IMG/VR virus record: IMGVR_UViG_3300042392_001599
Location: 1 to 21,742 of that record
Length of the DNA stretch: 21,742 nt
Direction: 5' to 3' (one strand)
Source: a virus
The notes under the pieces were generated by a model. The model ran no database searches, was not told where the DNA came from, and worked only from the letters and a program-made list of their open reading frames with translations. Shown one piece after another: positions 4,320-21,703 of this stretch. The position numbers were made by a program, and so were the translations under genes. Within the stretch, counting starts at the first letter, position 1. Each line of letters begins with the position of its first letter.

Positions 4320-4508
4320 ATGCCTAAATTTATAACAACCATGATGAATTCTTCAGAAGCTAATGCCTTAGGTATTACAACAACATGCCTTGCAGCTCTA
4401 AATAGTTTCTTCCAAGTATTTAATCCCTTAATAACAGGATTGTTTTATATAGCTTCTATAACTTGGCTATGCATTCAAATTTATTATAAGATTAAAATTA
4501 AAAAATGA
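4320..4508 (+). CDS. Putative holin (small membrane protein next to the endolysin)
   Basis: A 62-residue protein with one strong membrane segment, roughly residues 34-56 (FNPLITGLFYIASITWLCIQIYY), ending in a basic tail (KIKIKK). A second, weaker hydrophobic segment around residues 16-33 could pair with it. Size, charged C-terminus and a 4-nt ATGA overlap with the GH19 endolysin gene fit a holin that releases the endolysin to the cell wall. Holins have little sequence conservation, so the call rests on topology and neighbourhood. Alternatives are an antiholin or a small baseplate-associated membrane protein. Confidence 0.65.
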   Translation: MPKFITTMMNSSEANALGITTTCLAALNSFFQVFNPLITGLFYIASITWLCIQIYYKIKIKK

Positions 4509-5107
4509 TGAACTTAGAAAAATTAAAAGGACATATTCCAGATACAGTAATCGCTCAACTTCCTGATACAATTGTTAAATTTGAGTTAAACACACCATTG
4601 CGTTTAGCTCATTTCCTTGCTCAAGCTGGACATGAATCAGGTGGATTTAAGTTAGTGAATGAAAATTTAAACTATGGTGCTAAGGGTTTAACAAGTATAT
4701 TTAAAAAATATTTCCCAACAAATGATATGGCTTTACTTTATGAACGTAAACCAGAAAAAATAGCCAATATTGTTTATGCTTCACGTATGGGAAATGGTGA
4801 TAAAGCATCAGGTGAAGGATATAAATTTCGTGGACGTGGTTATATCCAATTAACTGGAAAAGATAATTATAAAGCTTTTGATAATGTAGTTGAAGAAAAT
4901 ATTATTGAAAATCCTGATTTAGTAGCTACAAAATATCCATTAATGTCAGCTGGTTGGTTCTTTCATAAAAATGGTTTACATAAATTAGCTGATGGTGGTG
5001 CAACTGACGCTGTTGTAACAACAATTACAAAACGTGTTAATGGAGGTACTATTGGATTAGCTGATCGTATTAAGCATTTTAAGGAATACTATGCTTGTTT
5101 AGCTTAA
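4505..5107 (+). CDS. GH19-family endolysin (chitinase-like lysozyme)
   Basis: A 200-residue protein that is essentially one glycoside hydrolase family 19 domain, expected to cut the peptidoglycan glycan chain. Two family hallmarks are visible: AHFLAQAGHESGGF with the putative catalytic acid E44 in the H-E-S-G-G motif, and ASGEGYKFRGRGYIQLTG (residues 101-118), where the G-R-G-x-I-Q-L-(T/S)-G substrate-groove motif is intact. Further on, SAGWFFHKNGL and ITKRVNGGTIGLADR match the conserved W-F and N-G-G elements. There is no signal peptide or wall-binding domain, consistent with release through a holin, the product of the gene overlapping its start by 4 nt. ATG at 4505 is followed by a second ATG at 4508, and either could be used. 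Lying between baseplate genes, it could instead be a virion-borne lysozyme; a free endolysin is more likely. Confidence 0.93.
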   Translation: MMNLEKLKGHIPDTVIAQLPDTIVKFELNTPLRLAHFLAQAGHESGGFKLVNENLNYGAKGLTSIFKKYFPTNDMALLYERKPEKIANIVYASRMGNGDKASGEGYKFRGRGYIQLTGKDNYKAFDNVVEENIIENPDLVATKYPLMSAGWFFHKNGLHKLADGGATDAVVTTITKRVNGGTIGLADRIKHFKEYYACLA

Positions 5108-6616: not shown

Positions 6617-9600
6617 ATGTCAATAACAGTTACTAAACTATCCTATTCTAATAATATCCTATCTGGATCTGCTTCAGTACTAGTCCCTTCAAGAGACATG
6701 GTAAGGAATTTTGGAGCAGATGGAGATTTTGTTGAAATGCATGTGTCTGACCCCGCGGGCAAACATTTATATTCTGTTATTCCTTTCACTAACTATAAAG
6801 TTCCTGGTTTATTTCAACCAACTGATACTTACTCAATTCAAGAATTAGAATTTAATCCTGATATTGATATTAAAAATTTAGGTATTCAATTTGGTGATTA
6901 TAGAATTCAATATAATATTTTAAGACCAAAAGTAGTACTTGGTACTAATGATAGACCATTTTTCTTAAAAGAAATATCTCCAAATAGACTTGAACTTAGA
7001 TTAAGTACTAACAATATCACTAATGATCAAATAGAACAAGGTGTTATTGATGTTATTAATGAAATACAAAGTGTAAATTATTTTAAAGAATATTACTTAA
7101 ATTTTGGTAATAATAATTTAGTACCATTTGTTAATATAGCTCTAGATAAATCTACTTCTATATATTCAGTAGTTATAAAACTATTAAATCCATTACCTCA
7201 ATTTGGATATAATATTAATAGTTCTTTATCAATAGTTGATGAAATATCTAATCCACAGGTGTTTAATGTTGAAATAACATTAGATACAATTCCTGTTACT
7301 TTTCCTACATTACGTGGACCTAACTTTGATTTAGACTTAGATCAATTAAGAGTTGGACCTACACCTTATTATAACTTTAATCAAGTAACTAGCTATACAG
7401 GACAATTCGCTCCTCAATTACAACAGCTGCTTGGTCAATTAAGTGCTTCTAATTTTTCTATCAATGTTGATTATACTAATTATGAAGATTTTATTCATTT
7501 CTCTTCTGCCGCTCGTCGACTAGAAGGATTTAGATATAAATTAATTAATATTGAAGCAACCTCATCATTGAGTGCCTCAGCTGCGTCTAGTGCGTCTCCA
7601 ACATCAAACATAGATGCTGAAAACTATCAAAACAATATAAATAAAATAGTTCAAAGTTTTGATGGTTGGGAACAATATTTATACTTTCAATCAGAATCAG
7701 CAGCTTGGCCTAAACAAAACAATACTAAACCTTACATAGTACAATCAGTGACAGCCTCAGAGGCTGCTTCTTGGTTTACAGGTAATTATGATTCTTCATC
7801 AATATATGATGAAAATAATCAAAACTACTTATTATATACTTTACCAGGATATATAGCTGAAAATGAAAATAATGAATTAGCATTTGAATTTGTAGCATCA
7901 ATAGGACAAATGTTTGATGATGTTTGGATTCATATTAAAGCAATATCTGACTTATATCAAGCTAAAAATGCTCTAGACCAAGGTATATCTAAAGACTTAG
8001 TATACTTTGCTCTACAATCAATGGGTATTAATACTTACACTGATGAAGATGGAGAAAGTGCATTTAAATATTTGTATGGTATAGATGAAAACGGTAATTA
8101 CTTACCTAATACAGGATCTCTTGAAACATTAGTAACAGCATCCCAGTACCAAATACCAGGACAAGACCAACAAAAAGAAATTTATAAACGTTTATATCAT
8201 AACTTACCTTTATTACTTAAATCAAAAGGTACAAATCGTTTTATTCAGTATTTAAATACTATATTCGGAATACCAAATACAATAATGGGGTATATTGAAT
8301 ATGGTGGAGTAGATAAAGTAACATCCTCATTCGAGTATGAATATGATAGATTTACTTATGGTATGAATACATTTGATCAAGGTGTTGTAGAAATACCTTG
8401 GGTATTCTTATCTCAAAGTTTAAATAGAACTGGATATAATGATATAGCACCTGATGGATTTGAATTTAGATTTAAAGCATTTGCTACATCATCTAATGAA
8501 ATGAAAATTAACTATGATGTACAAACATTAGCTGGATTCAGTGATGATGTTACTTCATATATGAATCTTGATTTGATTTATACTCAAACTGGTTCATCAG
8601 ATTCTATTTATTCAGGTAGTACAGGAGAATTTGGCTATATTAGTTTCACTATCAACACATTTAACGTCACTTCATCAACTGTACCTATATTTACAACAGG
8701 TTCAGATGGTGAAACTAGTTGGTATAATTTATTATTACAAAGAAGATATCCTAATAGAAGAGTAGGACAACTAAATGATCAACAATATTATGACTTATAC
8801 GTTAAAAACAATGTATACGGAGAAATAGGTCATGTAGCTAGTGCTAGTTTATATATTGATGGTACTATTAGTTCAGATAATGAATTTTGGTATGGAGCGG
8901 TTGCTAATTCTAAATTACATTTAGGAAATGTACCACCATTAAGTTCTCCATTCTCTGGTTCATTTCAAGAGTTTAGAATGTGGTCTAACTATATATCAGA
9001 ATCTGCTTTTGATTCTCATGTTTTAAATCCTGAATCAATTGAAGGTAATTTTACAACTTCATCATTTGATGATTTAGCTGTTAGATTTACTTTAGGTAAT
9101 AATTTATACACTTATAATCACAGTACAACTACAGAATTATATTCAACCCATCCTGATCAAACTACTCAAATATTAACAGCATCATTTATTGATTTTCCTA
9201 ATACTAATGCTTATAATTCATTCACAGAAACATATTATGCTGACGCAGCTAATTCTGGATATGCTAACCCAGTAACAGATAAAGTTAGAATAGTAAGTGG
9301 AAGTACTTATGGTAATCAATTATTACCTTATAAGAGTATTGAAATAACACCTATAATTCCTTTAACAAAAGATTTACACTTACTTGATGCTAGTTTATCT
9401 CCACAAGATGAAATAGATAGAAATATCATAGCTCAGTTTGGTTCAACATATAATTTAGATGATATTATTGGTAATCCTGCTACAGGGTCTTATCAACAAC
9501 TTCAAGTACTACAGTATGATTTCTTTAAGAAATTTGATAACAAATATAACTACAAAGATTATATTCGTTTAATATCCTTCTTTCATAACTCATTATTTAG

Positions 9601-11530
9601 AACACTTAAAGATTTTACTCCTGCTAGAACTAATCTATCAACAGGTATTGTAATTAAACCTCACCTTCTTGAAAGACCTGTTATACAAAGATATGAACCT
9701 ACAATAACTCATCTTGAGTATAGTCAATCTATTGATACAGCATTTATTTCATCTAGTAATGGAGGAGATTATAGTCAATCCTTATACTTAGATACAGTTC
9801 ATAGCAATATGGGTCCTGTAACTATGACTTCAGATGCTCGTGATTTTTTCACAGGAGTATTTCCAAGTTCTTCAGTTATAGCCTATAGTAATGAATTTCA
9901 AGAAGATCCATTCTTATCTTTTAATCCATATAATACAAGCTCATATTCAGAATCTATTTTTAGATATGATTATGATCCATTAATTAATAATGTTTCTAGT
10001 TCTATTACTTCAAGTATTAGACATAAAATAACTTATATAACTAGTGGAAGTAAATTAGTTCAAGTTTTTGAACCTATTGAATTACAAGATTTCACTTACG
10101 AATATCTTCGTCATGCTAGACCTAGATATATTGGATCTCAAGTTAATAGTGATACTTATAATTTTCTTACCAATAATGATCAATTTTTTGATTTAGATGG
10201 AATAGGTTCATATGGTAAAAATGCAGCTATTGATAAAAATACACTTCAATTTGCTTACTTCGCAGAAGCAACTTGTACTGGATCTTTCCAAATAGCAATG
10301 CCAGAACGTTCTAATCTTTATATCAAGTATTTAATTGATTCAAGTAGTTCATTAACAGAATTAGCTCAACGTGATTATACAACTATAACAAGTAACCAAT
10401 TTTATAATTTATATCAAGTACAAAATATATTTAAAGCGGGAGAAGAATTAAATATTTCATTATTCAATAATCAAATCCCATCATTACAAAAAACACTAGA
10501 TGGTAATCAATTTATTTATAGTAGTGGATACAAATATTATCCTGTATTATGGAGAGTAGCTGAAACAGATCAAATTTATTATATCCCAAGTGGTTCAAAT
10601 CCTCTTTCAGGAGTATTAACAGTTAATAGTTATGCTCCTTCTAATACTGCTGTTAATTATTCAACAAGATTTCTTAGCACTACTACAATAATAACAGGAA
10701 GAATAAATTATTCTCCAGCTATTCTTTTACCATATGATGTTATAGTAACAGTTAAAATAGATCTTGATGCTACTGGTGGTAATATATTCCGAGGAGATAA
10801 AACTGAAACCTTTGATGTACTAATACCAGCATTTGGTGTTAATGGTAGTCCTAATTTTATAGGATCTTATAGAAGAGATGTTCAAGGTAGATATAATATT
10901 AAATCTGGATTTCCTAGAGTAATTAATGTATTCCCAGCAGCAGGAACAGCAACTGATTTTAAATATAAATCAGCAGATGACGCAGCTTATTTAACAGTTA
11001 ATAATATTGACAAGAGTGTAGTATCTTGTTCATTACAAATGACTTCTTTTTACAATGCTGGATTATATTTTTCAGGTAGTGTGACACAAAGTCAACAACC
11101 TGATGTGGTAAGTACACTAAATATATACAATAGCTTTGCTCCCCCAGATTATTCATTTACATTAACACCAGGTGATGTGATAAGATTTAACTATACTGGT
11201 TCTAATTTTCCAACAACACGTTTTAGAAGTGTTGATGAGTATACAGTTCTTGAAGCTAATACTACAGGATCTCCTATTACTTTTAGACTAGATAGAGAGG
11301 TTAATGATAATATTACATCAAGTGTGACTCCATATCGTATTGAACGTTATGTATTTTCTAAAAAAATACCTGATGAAACAAACATTATTGTAGAACATGA
11401 AAAAAATCCTGGATTAACATCTGGTGGTGTAGCTAAGAATAAAAATCTACTTATGTCAGTTGATGATCAAGTAGGTAATATAGTGAGTGAACTTAAGAGT
11501 AAGATATTTAGCACAGTTTTAACTAATTAA
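6617..11530 (+). CDS. Giant baseplate protein (gp7-like position, tail-protein-I-like motif, LamG-like region)
   Basis: A 1637-residue protein, the largest in the window. The N-terminal ~310 residues are beta-rich. A low-complexity Ser/Ala linker follows (residues ~316-330, SSLSASAASSASPTS). Next comes a helical section with FDGWEQYLY and YDENNQNYLLYTLPGYI (~395-411), then YKRLYHNLPLLLKSKGT (KGT at 537-539) with RFIQYLNTIFGIP, resembling the R-x-x-L-P-x-L-x-x-x-K-G-T core of tail protein I and related baseplate proteins. Residues ~565-800 look like a LamG/concanavalin fold: ASLYIDG, LHLGN and FSGSFQEFRMWSNYISESAF. The remaining ~800 residues are mostly Tyr/Ser/Asn-rich beta domains, ending in a charged helix. 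T4 gp7 is also a large outer wedge protein, but about 1030 residues, so homology to gp7 is an inference from position. No export signal. Confidence 0.75.
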   Translation: MSITVTKLSYSNNILSGSASVLVPSRDMVRNFGADGDFVEMHVSDPAGKHLYSVIPFTNYKVPGLFQPTDTYSIQELEFNPDIDIKNLGIQFGDYRIQYNILRPKVVLGTNDRPFFLKEISPNRLELRLSTNNITNDQIEQGVIDVINEIQSVNYFKEYYLNFGNNNLVPFVNIALDKSTSIYSVVIKLLNPLPQFGYNINSSLSIVDEISNPQVFNVEITLDTIPVTFPTLRGPNFDLDLDQLRVGPTPYYNFNQVTSYTGQFAPQLQQLLGQLSASNFSINVDYTNYEDFIHFSSAARRLEGFRYKLINIEATSSLSASAASSASPTSNIDAENYQNNINKIVQSFDGWEQYLYFQSESAAWPKQNNTKPYIVQSVTASEAASWFTGNYDSSSIYDENNQNYLLYTLPGYIAENENNELAFEFVASIGQMFDDVWIHIKAISDLYQAKNALDQGISKDLVYFALQSMGINTYTDEDGESAFKYLYGIDENGNYLPNTGSLETLVTASQYQIPGQDQQKEIYKRLYHNLPLLLKSKGTNRFIQYLNTIFGIPNTIMGYIEYGGVDKVTSSFEYEYDRFTYGMNTFDQGVVEIPWVFLSQSLNRTGYNDIAPDGFEFRFKAFATSSNEMKINYDVQTLAGFSDDVTSYMNLDLIYTQTGSSDSIYSGSTGEFGYISFTINTFNVTSSTVPIFTTGSDGETSWYNLLLQRRYPNRRVGQLNDQQYYDLYVKNNVYGEIGHVASASLYIDGTISSDNEFWYGAVANSKLHLGNVPPLSSPFSGSFQEFRMWSNYISESAFDSHVLNPESIEGNFTTSSFDDLAVRFTLGNNLYTYNHSTTTELYSTHPDQTTQILTASFIDFPNTNAYNSFTETYYADAANSGYANPVTDKVRIVSGSTYGNQLLPYKSIEITPIIPLTKDLHLLDASLSPQDEIDRNIIAQFGSTYNLDDIIGNPATGSYQQLQVLQYDFFKKFDNKYNYKDYIRLISFFHNSLFRTLKDFTPARTNLSTGIVIKPHLLERPVIQRYEPTITHLEYSQSIDTAFISSSNGGDYSQSLYLDTVHSNMGPVTMTSDARDFFTGVFPSSSVIAYSNEFQEDPFLSFNPYNTSSYSESIFRYDYDPLINNVSSSITSSIRHKITYITSGSKLVQVFEPIELQDFTYEYLRHARPRYIGSQVNSDTYNFLTNNDQFFDLDGIGSYGKNAAIDKNTLQFAYFAEATCTGSFQIAMPERSNLYIKYLIDSSSSLTELAQRDYTTITSNQFYNLYQVQNIFKAGEELNISLFNNQIPSLQKTLDGNQFIYSSGYKYYPVLWRVAETDQIYYIPSGSNPLSGVLTVNSYAPSNTAVNYSTRFLSTTTIITGRINYSPAILLPYDVIVTVKIDLDATGGNIFRGDKTETFDVLIPAFGVNGSPNFIGSYRRDVQGRYNIKSGFPRVINVFPAAGTATDFKYKSADDAAYLTVNNIDKSVVSCSLQMTSFYNAGLYFSGSVTQSQQPDVVSTLNIYNSFAPPDYSFTLTPGDVIRFNYTGSNFPTTRFRSVDEYTVLEANTTGSPITFRLDREVNDNITSSVTPYRIERYVFSKKIPDETNIIVEHEKNPGLTSGGVAKNKNLLMSVDDQVGNIVSELKSKIFSTVLTN

Positions 11531-11558: not shown

Positions 11559-12227
11559 ATGGCGTATTTAAATAACCAATATGTAACAATTGATGCGGTC
11601 CTAACAAAAAAGGGTCGTGAATTGTTAGCACGTAACGATGGATCATTCCAAATTACTCAATTTGCTTTAGCCGATGATGAAATTGATTATACCTTGTATA
11701 ATCCAAATCATCCCTCAGGTTCTGCCTTTTTTGGTGAGGCTATTGAAGCAATGCCTTTATTAGAAGCATTTGTAGACGAGACACAAATGATGAAATACAA
11801 ATTAGTAACTTTACCTCGTGGTACTTCTAAATTACCTGTTCTTAATCTTGGATATACAGCTGTATCATTACGTCAAGCTGCTTCTATTAATATCACACCT
11901 CAAACATTAAATTATTTGGGTGCTGTTTCAACATTTGAACCATCTGGATATATGATGACTGTGGCTGATTCAAGATTCTTAAGTACATTTACAGGTACAG
12001 GAATTGACACAACAGGTTTAAACATTACTAATCCATCTCCAAATTCAAGTGGAGCTAGTCTATCAGCTAGTCAAATTGGAACAACATTTAGTTTAATAGC
12101 TACTACTATTAATACATTATATGCTACAAACTCTGTTGCTGGATCAACAATCACAACAACAATCACTGTGACAGGTAGAGATAGTGGAGCTAGAATTACT
12201 ATACCTTTAACAATAATTAAAACCTAA
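11559..12227 (+). CDS. Phage virion structural protein, tail/fibre-base type
   Basis: A 222-residue protein. The N-terminal segment (VTIDAVLTKKGRELLARNDG, residues ~8-27, then FQITQFALADDEIDY) is a pattern I associate with T4-like tail structural proteins, in which a K-K-G-R-E-x-L-A motif is followed by F-x-L-A-D-D-E-I-D-Y. The C-terminal part is a Thr/Ser-rich beta region (ITTTITVTGRDSGARITIPLTI) that could form an Ig-like or tip domain. There is no enzyme motif or signal peptide. It stands between the giant baseplate protein and other fibre-region proteins and is separated by 7 nt from the next gene. The function is inferred from context. Confidence 0.65.
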   Translation: MAYLNNQYVTIDAVLTKKGRELLARNDGSFQITQFALADDEIDYTLYNPNHPSGSAFFGEAIEAMPLLEAFVDETQMMKYKLVTLPRGTSKLPVLNLGYTAVSLRQAASINITPQTLNYLGAVSTFEPSGYMMTVADSRFLSTFTGTGIDTTGLNITNPSPNSSGASLSASQIGTTFSLIATTINTLYATNSVAGSTITTTITVTGRDSGARITIPLTIIKT

Positions 12228-12234
12228 TTAACAT

Positions 12235-13311
12235 ATGTCTTTTGGAGCTTATCAACCTGAAGATCAGGTACTTAGTTCAGATGCTATAGTGTCACCAATG
12301 TGGAGTAATGACTTAACACAATTAAGTACATTTTACAGCTGGTCTGCACAAGAAATAGACACCGCACAAGGTAAATTCTTCCTTAATGTGTTTCAAGGTG
12401 ATGTAAGTGTGACTCAATCTCTTGATTCACAATTTACAATCGCTTATGGACACATTAGTGGTTCAGGATCATCTTACTTTAATGCTTTAGTACCTGATAA
12501 AACACCAACTAGAGATGTATACGGGCAGTTCAGATCACTAATATATGGAGATGAAAATTCATCATTCCAATTTGGTGGTACAGCTTATACCTCAAAAGAT
12601 ATTATTGTAATATCAGTAAATAGAGCTCGTTACAAAGAATCATTCAATCCAGGATCATTTTATTTGACTATTAAAAGTGGTTCAAATCAAATATCTTTAG
12701 TTGATGACTCAACAGTAACAACAGTATCTACTTACATTGGTACAACACGTGTTTATCAATTATTAAGTGGATCATATAGTGGTAATACTCAAACAACTGT
12801 ACCATCTTCTTCTAACTATACAGTTAGTGGATCTTATGGAATAATGTTACCTGATGAAGGTTTAGTAATATTAAACCCAAGAGCATTAGCTTTATCATCA
12901 GGTCCTTTAGGAGGAGTTGGAGCTATATTCAATGAATTTAGTTCATCACAAGTAGCTTCATATTTTACTGCTTTAGGAGAAACATATAATCTTAATAATA
13001 GGATGGTATTTGATATGATCGATACAGCTACTAATCCTACCTTTAGTTTACAAAGCTATGAAACAATTTCTTCACGTTATTTCTTTACACGTGTTAAAAA
13101 TGCTGAGTCTAACTATACAACTAATCCAACAGTAATTGATTCAAATGGTAATTTACTATATACTCAATTGATATATAATCCTCAAACTTACATAACAACT
13201 GTTGGTTTATATAACAATAGTGGTGATTTATTAGCAGTAGCTAAATTAAATAAACCATTGGTGAAAGATTTCACAAAAGAATTATTATTAAGAGTTAAAC
13301 TAGACTTCTAA
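12235..13311 (+). CDS. Phage virion structural protein with a C-terminal domain reused downstream
   Basis: A 358-residue beta-rich protein beginning MSFGAYQPEDQVLSSDAIVSP, with no signal peptide. Its last ~77 residues (from ~282, YFFTRVKNAESNYTTNPTV to LLRVKLDF) hold the segment YITTVGLYNNSGDLLAVAKL. A close relative of this segment is found at the N-terminal end of the gene at 15347 (YVTTIGLYNDSQDLLAIAKM). This suggests a shared docking or assembly domain. I know the TTVGLYN...LLAVAKL pattern from T4-like phage structural proteins of unassigned function. Probable part of the baseplate periphery or fibre attachment. Confidence 0.68.
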   Translation: MSFGAYQPEDQVLSSDAIVSPMWSNDLTQLSTFYSWSAQEIDTAQGKFFLNVFQGDVSVTQSLDSQFTIAYGHISGSGSSYFNALVPDKTPTRDVYGQFRSLIYGDENSSFQFGGTAYTSKDIIVISVNRARYKESFNPGSFYLTIKSGSNQISLVDDSTVTTVSTYIGTTRVYQLLSGSYSGNTQTTVPSSSNYTVSGSYGIMLPDEGLVILNPRALALSSGPLGGVGAIFNEFSSSQVASYFTALGETYNLNNRMVFDMIDTATNPTFSLQSYETISSRYFFTRVKNAESNYTTNPTVIDSNGNLLYTQLIYNPQTYITTVGLYNNSGDLLAVAKLNKPLVKDFTKELLLRVKLDF

Positions 13312-13321
13312 TGTTACGCCC

Positions 13322-15340
13322 ATGTCAGCAAATACTTTTAAGAGACTTAATGTAGCGGATACTTTTGTAGTACCTTATACGGCTAACAAAAGTTGGGACA
13401 TAGAATCCTCTTCATTTGCTGAAAACAGAATTGTAGTTAATATAGGAGTTAATCATAGTGAATCAATCTTTGATCCAACTACAGACTATATAACTAACGG
13501 TCAGTATGATAGATTAGTATATGATTCTATTAACTTAGTTTATTATCCTAATTTTCTACCCACATCCTCTAACTTATACGCATCAGGAAAAATAAGTACT
13601 ATCTACAATGATGGTACTTTATCAACTTCATCATATAGTAAAGGACATATTAATTTAGGAAATATAGATACTATAAAATATTTCCCAACAGGAACAGCAG
13701 CCGCTATTTATGTTTTAAATATACCTAGAAATTTAACTAGTGAAAAAATATTACCCACTACTTTTGAGGTATATTTTAGTAGTGGATCATCAAATTATAA
13801 AATATATGATGATGGAAATTATAACTTATTTTACAGTGGTAGTCCTGTAAGTTCATCTCGTGGAACTGTATTAAATTATGGTTCACATATAGGTAATGTA
13901 TTTTATGAACAAAACGTTGCTATATTAACTGTTATTCCTAACAGTATAAGATTAACAGGATGGAGAGGAATTGATCCTTATTGTATAGGAGCCTCACCTT
14001 CAGTAACTCCTTCTATAACTAAGAGTACATCAGTATCTAAAACACCTAGTGTAACCCCAAGTGTAACTCCAAGTGTGACTCCAAGTATAACAGTAAGTTC
14101 TACACCTGCTGATACACCTAGTGTAACTCCAAGTGTAACTCCAAGTATAACAGTAAGTTCTACACCTTCTGGTACACCAAGTGTAACTCCAAGTATTACT
14201 ATTAGTGCTACACCAAGTATTAGTATAAGTGATACACCAAGTGTAACAGTAAGTAACTCAATAAGTAGTACACCAAGTGTTACCAATACTCCTAGTACTA
14301 CTCCTAGTGTCACACCTAGTATTACTCCTACTGTCACTCCTAGTCTCTCAATAAATGCAAGTATTAGTGTAACACCTACTGTAACAACAAGTATAAGTGT
14401 TAGTCCATCATTTAGTAATACTCCAAGTATAACAGTAAGTGTTACTCCAAGTGTTACTCCAAGTATTTCTATTAGTAAATCCATCAGTGTTACTCCAAGT
14501 ATAACTGTAAGTAATTCTATTAGTAATACTCCATCTATTACTACAAGTACTAGCATTAGTGTTACTCCAAGTATATCAATTAGTAAATCTATTAGTAACA
14601 CACCTAGTGTTACTCTAAGTGTTACTCCAAGTATATCAATAAGTAAATCAATATCAAATACTCCAAGTATATCAATTAGCAAATCTATTAGTAATACACC
14701 AAGTATTACACCAAGTATAACTAGAAGTATATCAATATCTAGAACACCAAGTGTTACACCAAGTAAAACAGTAACAAAATCACCAAGTATCACACCTAGT
14801 ATTTCAATTAGTAAATCTATTAGTAATACACCGAGTATAACAGTAAGTAAAACACCAACAGTAACACCAACACCTACAACGAGCCCAGTTCCAACTTCAA
14901 GTGTTGATGTGTATGCTCAAAGAGCACTAAGTATAGGAAATAGTTGTGGAATATATTATAAATTAGGAATCACTGGAACTGAAACATTTTTAGCAACTGT
15001 GAGTTCAGAGGTATGTTCATTGCGAGGTACAATTACCGGTATACCTAACGGAACAGTACTTTATATTGGATTTAGATCAATATCAGGATACATTAGATAC
15101 AACGCTGTAAACTCAGCTAGTGCATGTCCATCAAATCTTAATACATATTGTGGAACAGACTATAACCTAACCATAACTGGTGGTACATCAATTTCACTAA
15201 CAGCTTATGTTAATGCTGGTGCATACGAATTGTGTACTCCAATTTATACTACACCAACAGTAACACCGACAAAAACACCAACAAAATCACCAAGTATAAC
15301 ACCAAGTATTACTGTGAGTACATCACGCCCATCAACATAA
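13322..15340 (+). CDS. Repeat-stalk fibre-like protein 1 (TPSV/SISK tetrapeptide repeats)
   Basis: A 672-residue modular protein. Residues 1-224 form a beta-rich N-terminal domain (MSANTFKRLNVADTFVVPYT onward), probably the virion anchor. Residues 225-526 are a near-continuous tetrapeptide repeat of the form (T/S)-(P/I/V)-S-(V/I/K/N), about 75 units, with Ser almost always at the third position. Residues ~527-642 form a compact module with a C-P-x6-C pair (C602, C610). The last ~30 residues return to TPT/TPS repeats. The composition suggests an extended, rigid or glycosylated stalk carrying a distal domain, as in an adhesive fibre; receptor binding is inferred. The start is ATG 13322, since in-frame TAG lies at 13301 and no other ATG intervenes. 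An ATG at 13311 opens only a 14-codon out-of-frame ORF. Confidence 0.75.
   Translation: MSANTFKRLNVADTFVVPYTANKSWDIESSSFAENRIVVNIGVNHSESIFDPTTDYITNGQYDRLVYDSINLVYYPNFLPTSSNLYASGKISTIYNDGTLSTSSYSKGHINLGNIDTIKYFPTGTAAAIYVLNIPRNLTSEKILPTTFEVYFSSGSSNYKIYDDGNYNLFYSGSPVSSSRGTVLNYGSHIGNVFYEQNVAILTVIPNSIRLTGWRGIDPYCIGASPSVTPSITKSTSVSKTPSVTPSVTPSVTPSITVSSTPADTPSVTPSVTPSITVSSTPSGTPSVTPSITISATPSISISDTPSVTVSNSISSTPSVTNTPSTTPSVTPSITPTVTPSLSINASISVTPTVTTSISVSPSFSNTPSITVSVTPSVTPSISISKSISVTPSITVSNSISNTPSITTSTSISVTPSISISKSISNTPSVTLSVTPSISISKSISNTPSISISKSISNTPSITPSITRSISISRTPSVTPSKTVTKSPSITPSISISKSISNTPSITVSKTPTVTPTPTTSPVPTSSVDVYAQRALSIGNSCGIYYKLGITGTETFLATVSSEVCSLRGTITGIPNGTVLYIGFRSISGYIRYNAVNSASACPSNLNTYCGTDYNLTITGGTSISLTAYVNAGAYELCTPIYTTPTVTPTKTPTKSPSITPSITVSTSRPST
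13994..14900 (+). repeat. 12-nt-period repeat tract coding Ser/Thr/Pro tetrapeptides
   Basis: About 900 nt of degenerate 12-nt units approximating AC-N-CC-N-AGT-(G/A)T-N, in phase with the reading frame. Ser at the third codon of each unit is nearly always AGT although other Ser codons are common elsewhere. Larger copies are also visible: a 47-nt segment at 14061-14107 recurs at 14121-14167 with one mismatch (60-nt shift), and a 29-nt segment recurs at 14576, 14672 and 14804 with one or two differences. This points to growth by unequal recombination or slippage. Confidence 0.9.
15248..15337 (+). repeat. Second, short TPT/TPS repeat at the C-terminus of fibre-like protein 1
   Basis: Thirty codons (residues 643-672) reading TTPTVTPTKTPTKSPSITPS and ending STSRPST before the stop. 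Ending on a stalk repeat rather than a folded tip is odd and could mean a lost distal module. Confidence 0.85.
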
Positions 15341-15346
15341 TAAAAA

Positions 15347-16471
15347 ATGAATTCTAGGACTTTAAATACAAATATTACAAGAATAAAATTTCAAAACAGC
15401 ATGGTTGTTTATGAAACTTTTATGAAATGTACTATAAAGGACTATGAATTTAATTTAAGTTATAATCCAAGTTTACTATCAGGTAGTCAAGCTGCTTTAG
15501 TTCCATATAGTAGTTCTATCAATGGTAGTGTATTTTATAATCCTACGGGATCTGAATATTTTGGAATATTAAAAGATTTTACTACAGGTTCTATATCAGG
15601 ATCAGATTTTTCTCCATATGTTACTACAATTGGGTTATATAATGATTCTCAAGATTTATTAGCTATAGCTAAAATGTCATCACCTATGCCTATATCAGAT
15701 AATACTGATATGACATTTTTGGTAAAATGGGATACACAGTGGATTGAAAAAACATTCTTTATTCCATCTCCTACTTCAACACCATCTACTTCAGTACCTG
15801 CTAGTATACCAGCTACACCTAGTGTGACTCCAAGTATATCAATAAGTAAAACACCTTCTGTCTCACCAAGTGTGAGTAAATCACCAAGTATTACACCTAG
15901 TGTAACACCTAGTATAACAGTATCTGTTTCACAAGGAACATCAATATCAGTAACACCTAGTGTTAGTATAAGTACATCAATAAGTATTACACCTAGTGTA
16001 ACACCTAGTATAACACCATCTTCTTCACCACCATGTCCTGCTCCAAGAGAATATTATATCTCAGTATCAGGTAATTTCTATTGGAAAGATTGTAATGGAA
16101 ATGATTTATATACTTATCAAGAAGTTGGTGATTACATCTGTATATGCAACGCTACTGATTTACCTGTATCATTAAATGGTGGTGCTGGATATTTAACTGG
16201 GGGAGGATGTGATTGTGGAGTATTATATTCATCTCATAATGTTAGACTAAACAATACAGGATATCCAGCAATATGTTCTGTATCACAACAGTTAGTTTAT
16301 ACGACTTTTAATGTTGGAATTTCACCTGGTAATACAGTCTATACAGACCCTACTTTAATTAATGAAGTTCAAGGTTATACTTATATAGTTGAAGCTAATA
16401 GTGGAAGTTCAATTTATATGTTAGGAACAACAACTGGTATAGTAGGGTCAGCGATTGGTATTACTTGTTAA
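15347..16471 (+). CDS. Repeat-stalk fibre-like protein 2
   Basis: A 374-residue modular protein. Residues ~24-129 share a domain with the C-terminal end of the 12235-13311 product (FSPYVTTIGLYNDSQDLLAIAKM and MTFLVKWD). Residues 140-229 are the same kind of Ser/Thr/Pro tetrapeptide stalk as in the neighbours. From C230 the protein is cysteine-rich: CPAPREYYISVSGNFYWKDC, then ICICNATD and GGGCDCG. A final module follows with NTVYTDPTLI...YTYIVEANSGSSIYML, a G/N-x-x-x-Y-T-D-P pattern I associate with small repeated modules in Bacteroidota-related surface and phage proteins. The protein ends in Cys. Likely role: tail fibre or adhesin, with the N-terminal end docking on the virion and disulfide-stabilised or metal-binding distal modules. 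No signal peptide, as expected for a virion protein. Confidence 0.72.
   Translation: MNSRTLNTNITRIKFQNSMVVYETFMKCTIKDYEFNLSYNPSLLSGSQAALVPYSSSINGSVFYNPTGSEYFGILKDFTTGSISGSDFSPYVTTIGLYNDSQDLLAIAKMSSPMPISDNTDMTFLVKWDTQWIEKTFFIPSPTSTPSTSVPASIPATPSVTPSISISKTPSVSPSVSKSPSITPSVTPSITVSVSQGTSISVTPSVSISTSISITPSVTPSITPSSSPPCPAPREYYISVSGNFYWKDCNGNDLYTYQEVGDYICICNATDLPVSLNGGAGYLTGGGCDCGVLYSSHNVRLNNTGYPAICSVSQQLVYTTFNVGISPGNTVYTDPTLINEVQGYTYIVEANSGSSIYMLGTTTGIVGSAIGITC
15764..16033 (+). repeat. Ser/Thr/Pro stalk repeat in fibre-like protein 2
   Basis: Ninety codons of TPSV/SISK-type repeat, the same 12-nt period as in 13994-14900. Short exact DNA stretches are shared between the two genes, for example CCAAGTATATCAATAAGTAA, which gives material for recombination between them. 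Confidence 0.85.
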
Positions 16472-16505
16472 TATAGAATTTAATAAAACAGTACAATAAA
16501 TAAAA

Positions 16506-17201
16506 ATGTCAAATACAGGATATAAAGCATATGCAAACCTAGAAGAATACTATTTAGATAATGGTGTGGCTACAGGTTTAATCAAATCTAATGATATAGG
16601 TGATCCTGATTATATAGCACCTGTTTTAGATTATGTATTTTGTCCTTTACCTTCTATTTCTCCTAGTAGAACACCAGCATTAAGTAGAACACCAAGTGTA
16701 ACACCAAGTGTAACTCCAAGTATTAGTATTTCAGCAACACCATTAGCAACTCCTAGTATCACACCAAGTATAACAATTACACCTTCTATAACAAAAACAC
16801 CAACACCTACTCCATCTAAAACTGTAACACCTAGTGTGACAACATCTGCTTCATCACCTACACGTTATACTTTAACTACATTTGCTTTAAATGATTCCTC
16901 TTTACCTTCTAATGCTACTAAATTACAATATTCAACAGTAAGTAGTACTGGTCCTTGGACTGATTTAGGACCATTTAGTGGATATCCTGGAAATTGTACA
17001 TTTAAAGGAGCTCAATCATTTAATAGTGGAACTATAGTTTATGTAAGAGCCATTAATGAATTTGGTTATCAATATAGACACGCTGTTAATACTGATAACA
17101 CCACAAACTGTCCAACAGCAGGATCAGATTTGTGTTTCTCAACAATTCCTATGAATAGTAATAGAACTAAAGCATTCTTTATTAGTACTTTTACATGTTA
17201 A
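16506..17201 (+). CDS. Repeat-stalk fibre-like protein 3
   Basis: A 231-residue protein with the same plan in miniature. Residues 1-48 are a short N-terminal segment (YKAYANLEEYYLDNGVATG...). Residues 49-118 are a TPSV/TPSI/TPTP stalk. Residues ~119-231 form a C-terminal module that aligns with the module of fibre-like protein 1: GTIVYVRAINEFGYQYRHAVN against GTVLYIGFRSISGYIRYNAVN, both followed by C-P-x6-C (here C202 and C210). The last residue is Cys. The N-terminal piece is much shorter than in the two neighbours, so it may assemble differently or rest on another fibre protein. It is the last structural gene before the DNA-metabolism genes. Confidence 0.7.
   Translation: MSNTGYKAYANLEEYYLDNGVATGLIKSNDIGDPDYIAPVLDYVFCPLPSISPSRTPALSRTPSVTPSVTPSISISATPLATPSITPSITITPSITKTPTPTPSKTVTPSVTTSASSPTRYTLTTFALNDSSLPSNATKLQYSTVSSTGPWTDLGPFSGYPGNCTFKGAQSFNSGTIVYVRAINEFGYQYRHAVNTDNTTNCPTAGSDLCFSTIPMNSNRTKAFFISTFTC
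16650..16859 (+). repeat. Ser/Thr/Pro stalk repeat in fibre-like protein 3
   Basis: Seventy codons of the same tetrapeptide repeat, grading into TPTPTPSK near the end. Unit length and AGT Ser codon preference agree with the two longer tracts. Confidence 0.85.
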
Positions 17202-17216
17202 AAATAAAATAAGTTT

Positions 17217-17669
17217 ATGAAAAGATGGTTATGGTATTTAGATGATGGAAGTGTAGAACCATTTCCTGAAGATCAAATTAATGGATATTATGGTTTCACT
17301 TATATAATTACTAATTTAGAAACAAATAAGTTTTATATAGGTAAAAAAGCATTTATTCATAATAAAAAGAAAAAACTCACCAAAAAAGAAATCGCTGAAC
17401 AATCAGGTCCAGGACGTCGAGCTACAACACGAATTGATCAAGTAGATAGTGGATGGAAATCATATTATGGTTCATCTAAAGAATTATTAACTGATATTAA
17501 GTTATTAGGTGAAGATAAATTTGAACGTGTTATAATACATCTAGCTAAAAACAAAAAACAACTTACATATTTTGAATTGCAAGAACAAATAACATACAAT
17601 GTTTTATTCACAGACAATAGCTACAATGATAATATAGCTGGAAAGTATTTCCGTAAAGACTTTGCTTAG
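17217..17669 (+). CDS. GIY-YIG family endonuclease (SegE-like)
   Basis: A 150-residue protein. The GIY-YIG core is recognisable: GFTYIITN (Y29 in the GIY position, with F-T-Y replacing G-I-Y) and FYIGKK (Y40-I41-G42). The segment W80...YYGSSKELLTDIKLLGEDKFER and then YFELQEQ supply the conserved Gly-Ser-Ser-Lys/Glu element and the candidate catalytic Glu (E120 or E123). This layout, with SSKEL...LG...FER...E..Q, matches small SegE-like proteins of T4-like phages. Such enzymes nick or cut DNA and may be homing endonucleases or act on competing phage DNA; which applies here cannot be read from the sequence. No separate C-terminal DNA-binding domain is visible. It sits exactly between the fibre block and the replication block. 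Confidence 0.82.
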   Translation: MKRWLWYLDDGSVEPFPEDQINGYYGFTYIITNLETNKFYIGKKAFIHNKKKKLTKKEIAEQSGPGRRATTRIDQVDSGWKSYYGSSKELLTDIKLLGEDKFERVIIHLAKNKKQLTYFELQEQITYNVLFTDNSYNDNIAGKYFRKDFA

Positions 17670-19456: not shown

Positions 19457-21703
19457 TTGAAACATTTATTATTTTTATTGTTGTGTCCTTTATTTTTATT
19501 TTCTCAAGATACAATATTCAACAAAAAGTTAGACAATATTACAGTTACCTCAGTAACTAAAAAAGATAACAATGCAGCTGTTCTTAACATAATTAGGAAC
19601 AGCTCTGTTGTTTCTGATGGGATATCAATTGAATTTATTAAAAAAACACCAGACCGTACTGTTGGTGATGTTCTTAAAAGAATAAATGGTGTTACTATTC
19701 AAAATGATAAGTTTGTATTAGTGCGTGGTTTAGCAGATAGATATAATCTAGCCTTACTAAATAAAACACTACTCCCATCAACTGAACCAGATAGAAGAGC
19801 ATTTTCATTTGACATTATACCCGCAGGATTAATTGATAATATTATTATCGCTAAATCAGCAGCTGCTAATCTACCAGGTGACTTTGCAGGAGGTATAGTT
19901 CAAATAACAACTAAAGATGTATCTAGCCGTTTTTTTTCTTTAAACACAGGATTAAGTTATGGAACAGTGTCTACGTTCCAAAAATTCAAATCCGTGGAAT
20001 ATACTCCTTTCCCACAAAATTTTCCTTCTACATATCAATTCCGCATAGGTAGTAATGGTGATAAACGAGCTTATACTCGATTAGTTAATTCACCTACAAT
20101 GAAAATTATTAATTCTATACCAAATACAAACAGTTCATTTTCTTTTGGACTAAAAAAGAATAAATGGAATCTAATATTCAGTTCATTATATAGAAATTCA
20201 TATTCAATAAATTATACTGATAGACAAGACTACCAATCATCAACTGAGTTAGCATATAAGTATAAAGATACTTCTTACTCTACTACTCAATTATTAAATG
20301 GATTAGCTAATATCACTTACATAGGTAAAAACAAATATAGCTTAAAGACATTATTTAATCATCAAATAGAACAACTATATCTAACTCGTAATGGGGATAA
20401 TTATGATAATGTTCAAGATGTAAGAAGTAATGCATCTAATCATGTAATTAAAACAGTTATAAACTCTCAATTTGAAGGTAAAATTAAAACATTAGATTTT
20501 AATTTAGGTTATAACTTAATGCTACGTGATCAACCAGATTATAGAGTTAATCCAATTACAAAATCATTAAGTATAAATGAACCATATACTGTAGCTTGGA
20601 GAGATACATATCGTTTTTGGAGTATAATGGATGAAAATAGTTTTAATGGTGGTGTAAATAAAGTATTTAATAATATAAAAATTGGAGCAAATTATCTTAA
20701 AAAAATAAGAAATTTCCAAGCTAGAATATTCAGATATGAGGCAGCAGATATGTTAAATGAAATCACTAACAATACAGATAAGTATAAAGCCGATTTTGAT
20801 TTAGCAACTACATATGCAATGTATGATAATGATTTTGGAAAGTGGAAGTTAAATACTGGTTTAAGATCAGAATATAATCTATTTAATGTTAACACAGCTG
20901 ATTTTAGTGGTCAAAAAGTAAATGTAAATAGAAAATATTTAGATGTACTTCCATCATTAAATTTATCTTATAATTTAGATAAAACTAAATTTAGATTATC
21001 TGCTAGTAAAACACTAGCACGTCCTGAATTTAGAGAAGTAGCTAATTTTGCCTACTATGATTTTGTTCGTAATGCACAAATATTAGGAAATTCCAAATTA
21101 GAAAAATCAGACATATATAATTTAGATTTAAAATACGAATACTACTCTAAACCAGATGAAAATGTATCTATAGCATTGTTTAGTAAGAATTTTATCAAAC
21201 CAATTGAACAAATCGTAGCTGACGGATCTGTTCCATCTAACCTATTACTTACCTTTACTAACCCAAACAAAGCAACAGTGTATGGTATTGAGTTTGAACT
21301 ACATAAAAAAATTAATAATTGGTTAGATTTTTATACCAATTCCTCTTTAATTCACTCTGAGGTAAAGATAAATAATATAAAAAGGCAACTACAAGGACAA
21401 TCAAATTATATTATAAATGGTGGTTTAAATTTCCATAAAAATAAAAATACACTAAACATTACATATAATCGTGTAGGTGATAGATTATCTGCTGTTGGAT
21501 TTCAAGGCTACTCAGATATATTTGAAAATAGTAGGAATATCTTAGATATAGTATACCTAAGAAAAATAAATAAAAGCGAAATTAAGATTGCTATAAACGA
21601 TGTTTTCGCTCAACCTTCAATATATTATCAAAAAACTAAAGGCAACTTAATAACAACAAATAACGAACAAACAATCTCATTAACAATTAATTTTAATTTA
21701 TGA
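19457..21703 (+). CDS. TonB-dependent outer-membrane receptor, Bacteroidota type
   Basis: A 748-residue protein that should form a plugged 22-strand barrel importing a ligand across the outer membrane with TonB energy. A signal peptide is clear (MKHLLFLLLCPLFLFSQ, cleavage near S16/Q17). A TonB-box-like ITVTSV lies at 28-33. The plug carries VGDVLKRINGV (69-79), FVLVRGLADRYN (86-97), LPSTEPDRR (106-114), DIIPAGLIDNI (119-129) and NLPGDFAGGIVQITTKD (138-154), classic plug motifs. The rest alternates as beta strands and ends SLTINFNL, a plausible last barrel strand. The start is TTG: TAA stands directly upstream in frame, no early ATG exists, and only TTG gives the full signal peptide. The carboxypeptidase-like N-terminal domain common in Bacteroidota receptors is absent. 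It follows the phage nuclease gene by 42 nt on the same strand with no obvious composition change. The ligand cannot be predicted. Confidence 0.94.
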   Translation: MKHLLFLLLCPLFLFSQDTIFNKKLDNITVTSVTKKDNNAAVLNIIRNSSVVSDGISIEFIKKTPDRTVGDVLKRINGVTIQNDKFVLVRGLADRYNLALLNKTLLPSTEPDRRAFSFDIIPAGLIDNIIIAKSAAANLPGDFAGGIVQITTKDVSSRFFSLNTGLSYGTVSTFQKFKSVEYTPFPQNFPSTYQFRIGSNGDKRAYTRLVNSPTMKIINSIPNTNSSFSFGLKKNKWNLIFSSLYRNSYSINYTDRQDYQSSTELAYKYKDTSYSTTQLLNGLANITYIGKNKYSLKTLFNHQIEQLYLTRNGDNYDNVQDVRSNASNHVIKTVINSQFEGKIKTLDFNLGYNLMLRDQPDYRVNPITKSLSINEPYTVAWRDTYRFWSIMDENSFNGGVNKVFNNIKIGANYLKKIRNFQARIFRYEAADMLNEITNNTDKYKADFDLATTYAMYDNDFGKWKLNTGLRSEYNLFNVNTADFSGQKVNVNRKYLDVLPSLNLSYNLDKTKFRLSASKTLARPEFREVANFAYYDFVRNAQILGNSKLEKSDIYNLDLKYEYYSKPDENVSIALFSKNFIKPIEQIVADGSVPSNLLLTFTNPNKATVYGIEFELHKKINNWLDFYTNSSLIHSEVKINNIKRQLQGQSNYIINGGLNFHKNKNTLNITYNRVGDRLSAVGFQGYSDIFENSRNILDIVYLRKINKSEIKIAINDVFAQPSIYYQKTKGNLITTNNEQTISLTINFNL

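Follow-up and report, generated by a model that had tools for sequence, protein, structure and literature searches.

Two adjacent genes that encode complementary halves of a predicted phage tail-docking protein and may display exchangeable adhesins on serine/threonine stalks

RESULTS

Three stalk-bearing genes in a T4-like tail cluster

The window, i.e., the whole stretch of DNA analyzed here (21,742 nucleotides), is a 21.7-kb piece of the genome of an uncultured virus and contains a T4-like tail cluster. This cluster comprises a gp25-like wedge protein gene (positions 2019 to 2438), a GH19 enzyme (lysozyme/chitinase) gene inside the baseplate gene cluster (4505 to 5107), and a 1637-residue gene (6617 to 11530) followed by genes beginning at 11559 and 12235. 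Beside the GH19 gene, within positions 4320 to 5107, lies a gene for a 62-amino-acid likely membrane protein. The gene order is largely common to the cultured Flavobacterium phage immuto, in which baseplate, fiber, and spike genes are annotated.

Three putative fiber genes follow on the plus strand. Fiber gene 1 (13322 to 15340; 672 amino acids) begins with a first N-terminal part (13322 to 13942; residues 1 to 207), continues with stalk 1 (13991 to 14908; residues 224 to 529, 306 amino acids) and a distal module (14912 to 15235), and ends on a second, terminal naked stalk (15242 to 15337; residues 641 to 672, 32 amino acids). After the junction TAA TAA AAA (15338 to 15346), fiber gene 2 (15347 to 16471; 374 amino acids) encodes another N-terminal part (15353 to 15736; residues 3 to 130), stalk 2 (15767 to 16042; residues 141 to 232, 92 amino acids), and one or more distal modules (16049 to 16468). 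Fiber gene 3 (16506 to 17201; 231 amino acids) joins a 46-residue N-terminal module (16506 to 16643), 57 to 74% identical among relatives, to stalk 3 (16650 to 16877; residues 49 to 124, 76 amino acids) and a distal module (16881 to 17198). These core stalks of 306, 92, and 76 residues measure 309, 97, and 79 under an automatic mask. The first-pass annotation had seen in the three genes a single plan of distinct N-terminal parts, Ser/Thr/Pro stalks of about 300, 90, and 70 residues, and cysteine-bearing distal modules, and all of these elements were confirmed.

Downstream, the cassette is closed on the plus strand by a GIY-YIG-type gene (17217 to 17669), the same border being found in most relatives. 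This gene carries the PHROGs label "NAD synthetase" (phrog_447) and also matched homing endonucleases; as a driver of the gene split described below it gained no support, fused and split loci being bordered alike. Further downstream (19457 to 21703), the phage genome encodes a 748-amino-acid TonB-dependent receptor (Plug and OMP_b-brl_3) with an apparent signal peptide, which possibly plays a role in superinfection exclusion or uptake. At this position, two relatives (L007 and L018; L numbers designate the loci compared) have a different outer-membrane barrel family, OMP_b-brl_4, and other relatives have none.

A predicted docking protein encoded by one gene or by two

In genes 1 and 2, the N-terminal parts aligned to successive segments of a single protein, that of the nearest unsplit relative (L063), at residues 1 to 202 for gene 1 (z = 49) and 213 to 315 for gene 2 (z = 37). 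Both also matched one protein in many further relatives, including immuto, in BLAST and HMM searches. At the level of sequence, they are the complementary N- and C-halves of one protein of ~300 residues, hereafter called the docking protein after its predicted role. Among 91 nonredundant loci, this protein was encoded by one gene in 58 and split in 33, a few split calls being based on one half alone and the best 80 of the >590 viral stretches that encode the C-part having been read. The anchor tree, built on the neighboring gene, required 8 unoriented changes between the two states, 7 of them forced by well supported branches, versus 27 under label shuffling; this count may be too high if neighboring genes recombine.

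The cut point was constant. The N-half ended at profile position 193-194 of 195 in the split lineages (191 in a single contig whose end truncates it), and the C-half started mostly at positions 2-9 of 122; the window's own halves were complete to 194 and started from 2, respectively. Judged by these profiles, the joint is the same in all split lineages, and the two genes together cover one intact homologue. The first-pass annotation had counted a fused gene in relatives as evidence against its fiber array. Such a gene does exist, in the form of a stalkless scaffold, and the objection therefore holds in part.

Among the 30 nonredundant loci with both halves visible, a stalk was present on the N-half in 22 and on the C-half in 13, a stalk gene lay between the halves in 16, and no stalk was found in 7. 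Gene 3, which follows both halves in the window, lies between them in most close relatives. Stalks occurred in 26 of 33 split loci versus 3 of 35 fused loci (Fisher P = 3e-9, kinship ignored), an association for which tree-independent pairs were too few to reach significance. Cut and stalk are separable, since seven split loci have no stalk; splits without stalks occur in L030-L036 and L067/L068, and in the latter the halves are simply adjacent. Moreover, a bare C-half without any adhesin is retained in L030-L036, L058, L064, and L067/L068, which argues that this half is needed structurally.

The N-part of gene 1 is 61 to 77% identical among close relatives, so that a conserved N-terminal anchor is combined with a variable distal module. 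The N-parts had no match in PHROGs, Pfam, or NCBIfam, and among annotated phages tblastn matched only immuto, Mel-JY01, and one uncultured phage. Relatives of the C-part were also present in metagenome contigs binned as Flavobacteriales, which, together with the immuto gene order, indicates that the host is probably a flavobacterium.

The structural model of the fused L063 protein (pLDDT 80) placed the joint in a lower-confidence linker between strands (residues 201 to 220). Its fold had no recognizable match in the PDB (Foldseek E > 0.2; VIA Z ≤ 3.5), and profile searches of the PDB with the docking protein and the distal module returned nothing significant; baseplate-wedge structural matches were weak (E about 0.4) and were set aside. 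Weak structural alignments (Z ≤ 3.5) placed strands from both halves in one sandwich (34-232 and 13-315), which gives no more than a hint that the two halves interlock. In a viral structure library, the matches were phage relatives, some of them annotated as lectin- or LamG-like, in agreement with LamG-like in-frame inserts of ~300 residues observed in three single-gene forms (L004, 18024-19799; L146, 12-1685; L151, 2834-4540). These inserts immediately precede the final strand of the N-part, at what constitutes a second insertion point.

Because no fold was recognizable, the docking role is read from synteny. The gp25-like wedge gene and upstream structural genes, the synteny with immuto, and an upstream paralogue all place the protein within the tail/baseplate cluster. 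The paralogue is the tail-cluster gene at 12235 to 13311 (plus strand; 358 amino acids), found at the same place in nearly all relatives by tblastn or HMM. Its profile aligned to that of the docking protein with hhalign (99.7%, E = 8e-26), as expected of an ancient, distant paralogue, which points to an old duplication behind this pair and not behind the three fiber genes.

Strict serine/threonine alternation in the stalks

The first-pass annotation described the stalks as having a period of four residues. This period is present, lag-4 identity exceeding that of shuffled composition with z scores of 12.6, 5.6, and 6.0 for stalks 1, 2, and 3, but the description was incomplete, since this periodicity is superimposed on a strict two-residue one. 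Odd lags were depleted in the stalks (z down to -8), and in stalk 1 Ser or Thr occupied 149 of 153 every-second positions (97%) without any phase break, compared with 7% in the other phase, local alternation being 0.98 versus at most 0.67 in shuffles. The rule of the stalks is (S/T)-x, in which x alternates between Pro-type and Ile/Val-type residues. Between codons four residues apart, 36 of 38 single-base differences kept Ser or Thr, whereas 37% would be expected at random, indicating that the alternation is selected and does not reflect repeat copying alone.

That the stalks are neither heptad coiled coils nor collagen, as first claimed, holds for the window, where the Gly-X-Y pattern is absent and the stalks contain 0 to 1% Gly; collagen-like Gly-Ser/Thr stalks occur in downstream genes of two relatives (L133 and L140). 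A strict two-residue alternation suits the three-residue turn of a polyproline helix less well than it suits an extended beta-like or disordered chain, which is the more probable form. Other stalk types are found at the same locus in relatives, including pure Thr-Pro (L097), TTAP (L091), and Thr/Ser runs (L025, L029, L071, L094, and L096), and thus the stalk can be regarded as an exchangeable spacer. The longest one, of the (S/T)-x type, belongs to L072 with 435 plus 878 residues (~1,300); the corresponding fiber gene (L072, 1315-6153) encodes 1612 amino acids, and its stalk would exceed 400 nm if fully extended. A literature search on the stalk peptide found no paper.

The stalks might also be mucin-like rods that phage glycosyltransferases coat with sugars and that serve as spacer, shield, and adhesin arm, a tentative reading that we consider possible but not probable and that is compatible with a split docking protein, not an alternative to it. 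It draws on relatives whose cassettes contain glycosyltransferase genes. Inside or beside the cassette, such genes or members of phrog_4417, a family of unknown function, were found in 11 of 40 stalk-bearing versus 2 of 39 stalkless loci, a modest association (Fisher P = 0.013, kinship ignored). They comprise PF11397 GlcNAc transferases, GT2, TOD1/MUCI70-like proteins, and phrog_4417, and adjoin Ser/Thr stalk genes in L029, L069, L071, L075, L076, L094, L095, L096, and L098. However, the window's own cassette has no glycosyltransferase gene, and its stalks lack the Bacteroidota general O-glycosylation motif D(S/T)(A/I/L/V/M/T). In addition, GT2 genes lie elsewhere in the genomes of stalked and stalkless phages, including the stalkless immuto, and whole-record glycosyltransferase counts did not separate the two groups.

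Exchange of distal modules across genes and phage lineages

Genes 1 and 3 carry homologous distal modules of a family with four invariant Cys, members of which also form the gene 2 tips of L008, L012, L019, L039, and L054 and the tips of the N-gene in L029 and L096. Gene 2 of the window bears a different type of module, the second half of which matched a module of L071 (E = 1e-5). Altogether, 113 distal modules fell into 70 clusters, several of which span gene positions. The gene 1 tip of L008 recurs as a gene 2 module of L054 with 87% DNA identity, compared with 75% for the neighboring gene. By these sequence relationships, the distal modules have been exchanged between genes and between lineages, and the earlier view of the array as a fiber toolkit with module exchange is borne out both by these shared modules and by its position in the tail cluster. 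Close relatives of the distal modules in the window were searched for in viral contigs and phages, and none were found. Five models of the gene 3 distal module differed from one another, and the best of them (pLDDT 82) predicts a beta-sandwich. Its structural matches (beta-sandwiches such as those of CBM41, pilins, and VHL; Z ≤ 7.2) were rejected as too common for naming a ligand.

DISCUSSION

Our results argue for a model, which we consider likely, in which genes 1 and 2 encode the two chains of a split tail-docking protein that reassemble and display exchangeable adhesins. The unsplit docking protein would be a single beta-rich chain of ~300 residues encoded beside the baseplate genes. Cutting the gene at its one joint would yield an N-part of about 200 amino acids and a C-part of about 120 amino acids. 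From the joint onward, the N-chain would be extended by stalk 1 with its tip, while the C-chain would begin anew at the joint, keep its natural end, and be extended there by stalk 2 with a tip of its own. A further stalk-adhesin, normally encoded between the halves, would be provided by gene 3. If the chains are present in the virion and reassemble at the same tail position, each such position would show two adhesins of unequal reach, the stalks having contour lengths of about 95 to 100 and 29 to 31 nm if fully extended. Swapping of tips and stalks as modules between genes and phages would then alter receptor binding.

The halves might instead have lost contact with each other and dock separately on the baseplate, the array then consisting of three independent short fibers. 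Each half does bear its own adhesin, and the low-confidence linker that contains the joint in the fused model means that the parts could be separable domains. We nevertheless regard this possibility as rather improbable, as wherever both halves were seen they are kept together in the N-then-C order, including at stalkless loci, and the adhesin-less C-half of L030-L036, L064, and L067/L068 makes sense only if it is structurally needed.

A simple tandem duplication, by which the three genes would be paralogous whole fibers that later diverged, would account for the homology of the gene 1 and gene 3 distal modules and for DNA runs of 24 to 25 bases common to stalk 1 and the stalk of gene 2 or 3, which exceed codon-shuffled controls. 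We judge it very unlikely, since the N-parts of genes 1 and 2 follow one another along a single protein and the N-module of gene 3 matches neither. The proposal of the first-pass annotation that the array was made by duplication is mostly lost on the same ground, the two N-parts being halves of one ancestor and not copies; duplication stands for the distal module of genes 1 and 3 and, anciently, for the whole docking protein through its upstream paralogue. Finally, a decaying or misassembled locus, in which frameshift or assembly artifacts would account for both the split and the naked stalk at the end of gene 1, could be suspected from the gene 2 ATG lying in frame with gene 1 and only TAA TAA AAA apart, but it is hardly credible given 33 nonredundant split loci that differ in gap length, in frame, and in the genes that intervene.

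Beyond the reassembly of two chains, we lean slightly toward a broader view of the bipartite docking protein as a built-in insertion site for adhesins. The protein would have been cut repeatedly at one joint, with the two chains reassembling, and exchangeable stalk-adhesin cassettes, which in some lineages bring glycosyltransferases of their own, would be placed on or between the halves, new binding specificities being added without disturbing the tail. If this holds true, a widespread group of aquatic phages, probably of flavobacteria, would have a recurrent natural cut site that accepts adhesins, which would explain how two different tips are shown at one tail position. It would also provide a rule for locating host-binding tips in unannotated phage genomes, namely, at the joint of the docking protein. 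The strictly alternating Ser/Thr stalk is, moreover, a type of protein architecture that lends itself to direct tests of fold and modification.

Within the library searched, we found no paper on this split stalk-adhesin system, and its components can be compared with several known ones. In the cultured Flavobacterium phage vB_FspM_immuto (Immutovirus; NC_055915), gp105 is the docking protein in its single-gene form, unsplit and without stalks; its gene occupies the corresponding position and is followed by annotated tail fiber and spike genes. Modular tail fibers and receptor-binding proteins share with the present array the plan of a conserved anchor, a spacer, and a variable, exchangeable tip, whereas here the anchor comes in two parts and an alternating Ser/Thr stalk forms the spacer. 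The T5-like phages DT57C and DT571/2 have branched lateral tail fibers encoded by two genes, ltfA and ltfB, where T5 has one; the LtfA and LtfB tips recognize different O-antigens, and LtfB, which lacks homology to the one fiber of T5, is thought to hang on LtfA (PMC4728585). As in that system, two adjacent adhesin genes are found where relatives have one, with receptor-recognition domains, here predicted ones, on both and variable tips. In contrast, both proteins here start with complementary halves of a single protein of relatives, and their stalks are (S/T)-x arrays. Genes in pieces are known from Aeh1 NrdA, split by mobE, from gene 43A/43B of phage 25, and from the T4 topoisomerase, the chains of which reassemble (PMC2988022). 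Here too, inserted DNA divides one coding region so that it yields two chains, which are predicted to reassemble; however, the known cases are enzymes, the best of them cut by mobile endonucleases, whereas the present one is a predicted tail protein whose cargo, either inserted or appended, consists of adhesins. The case described here thus unites the ideas of the branched fiber and of the split protein and adds to them a fixed joint and an unusual type of stalk.
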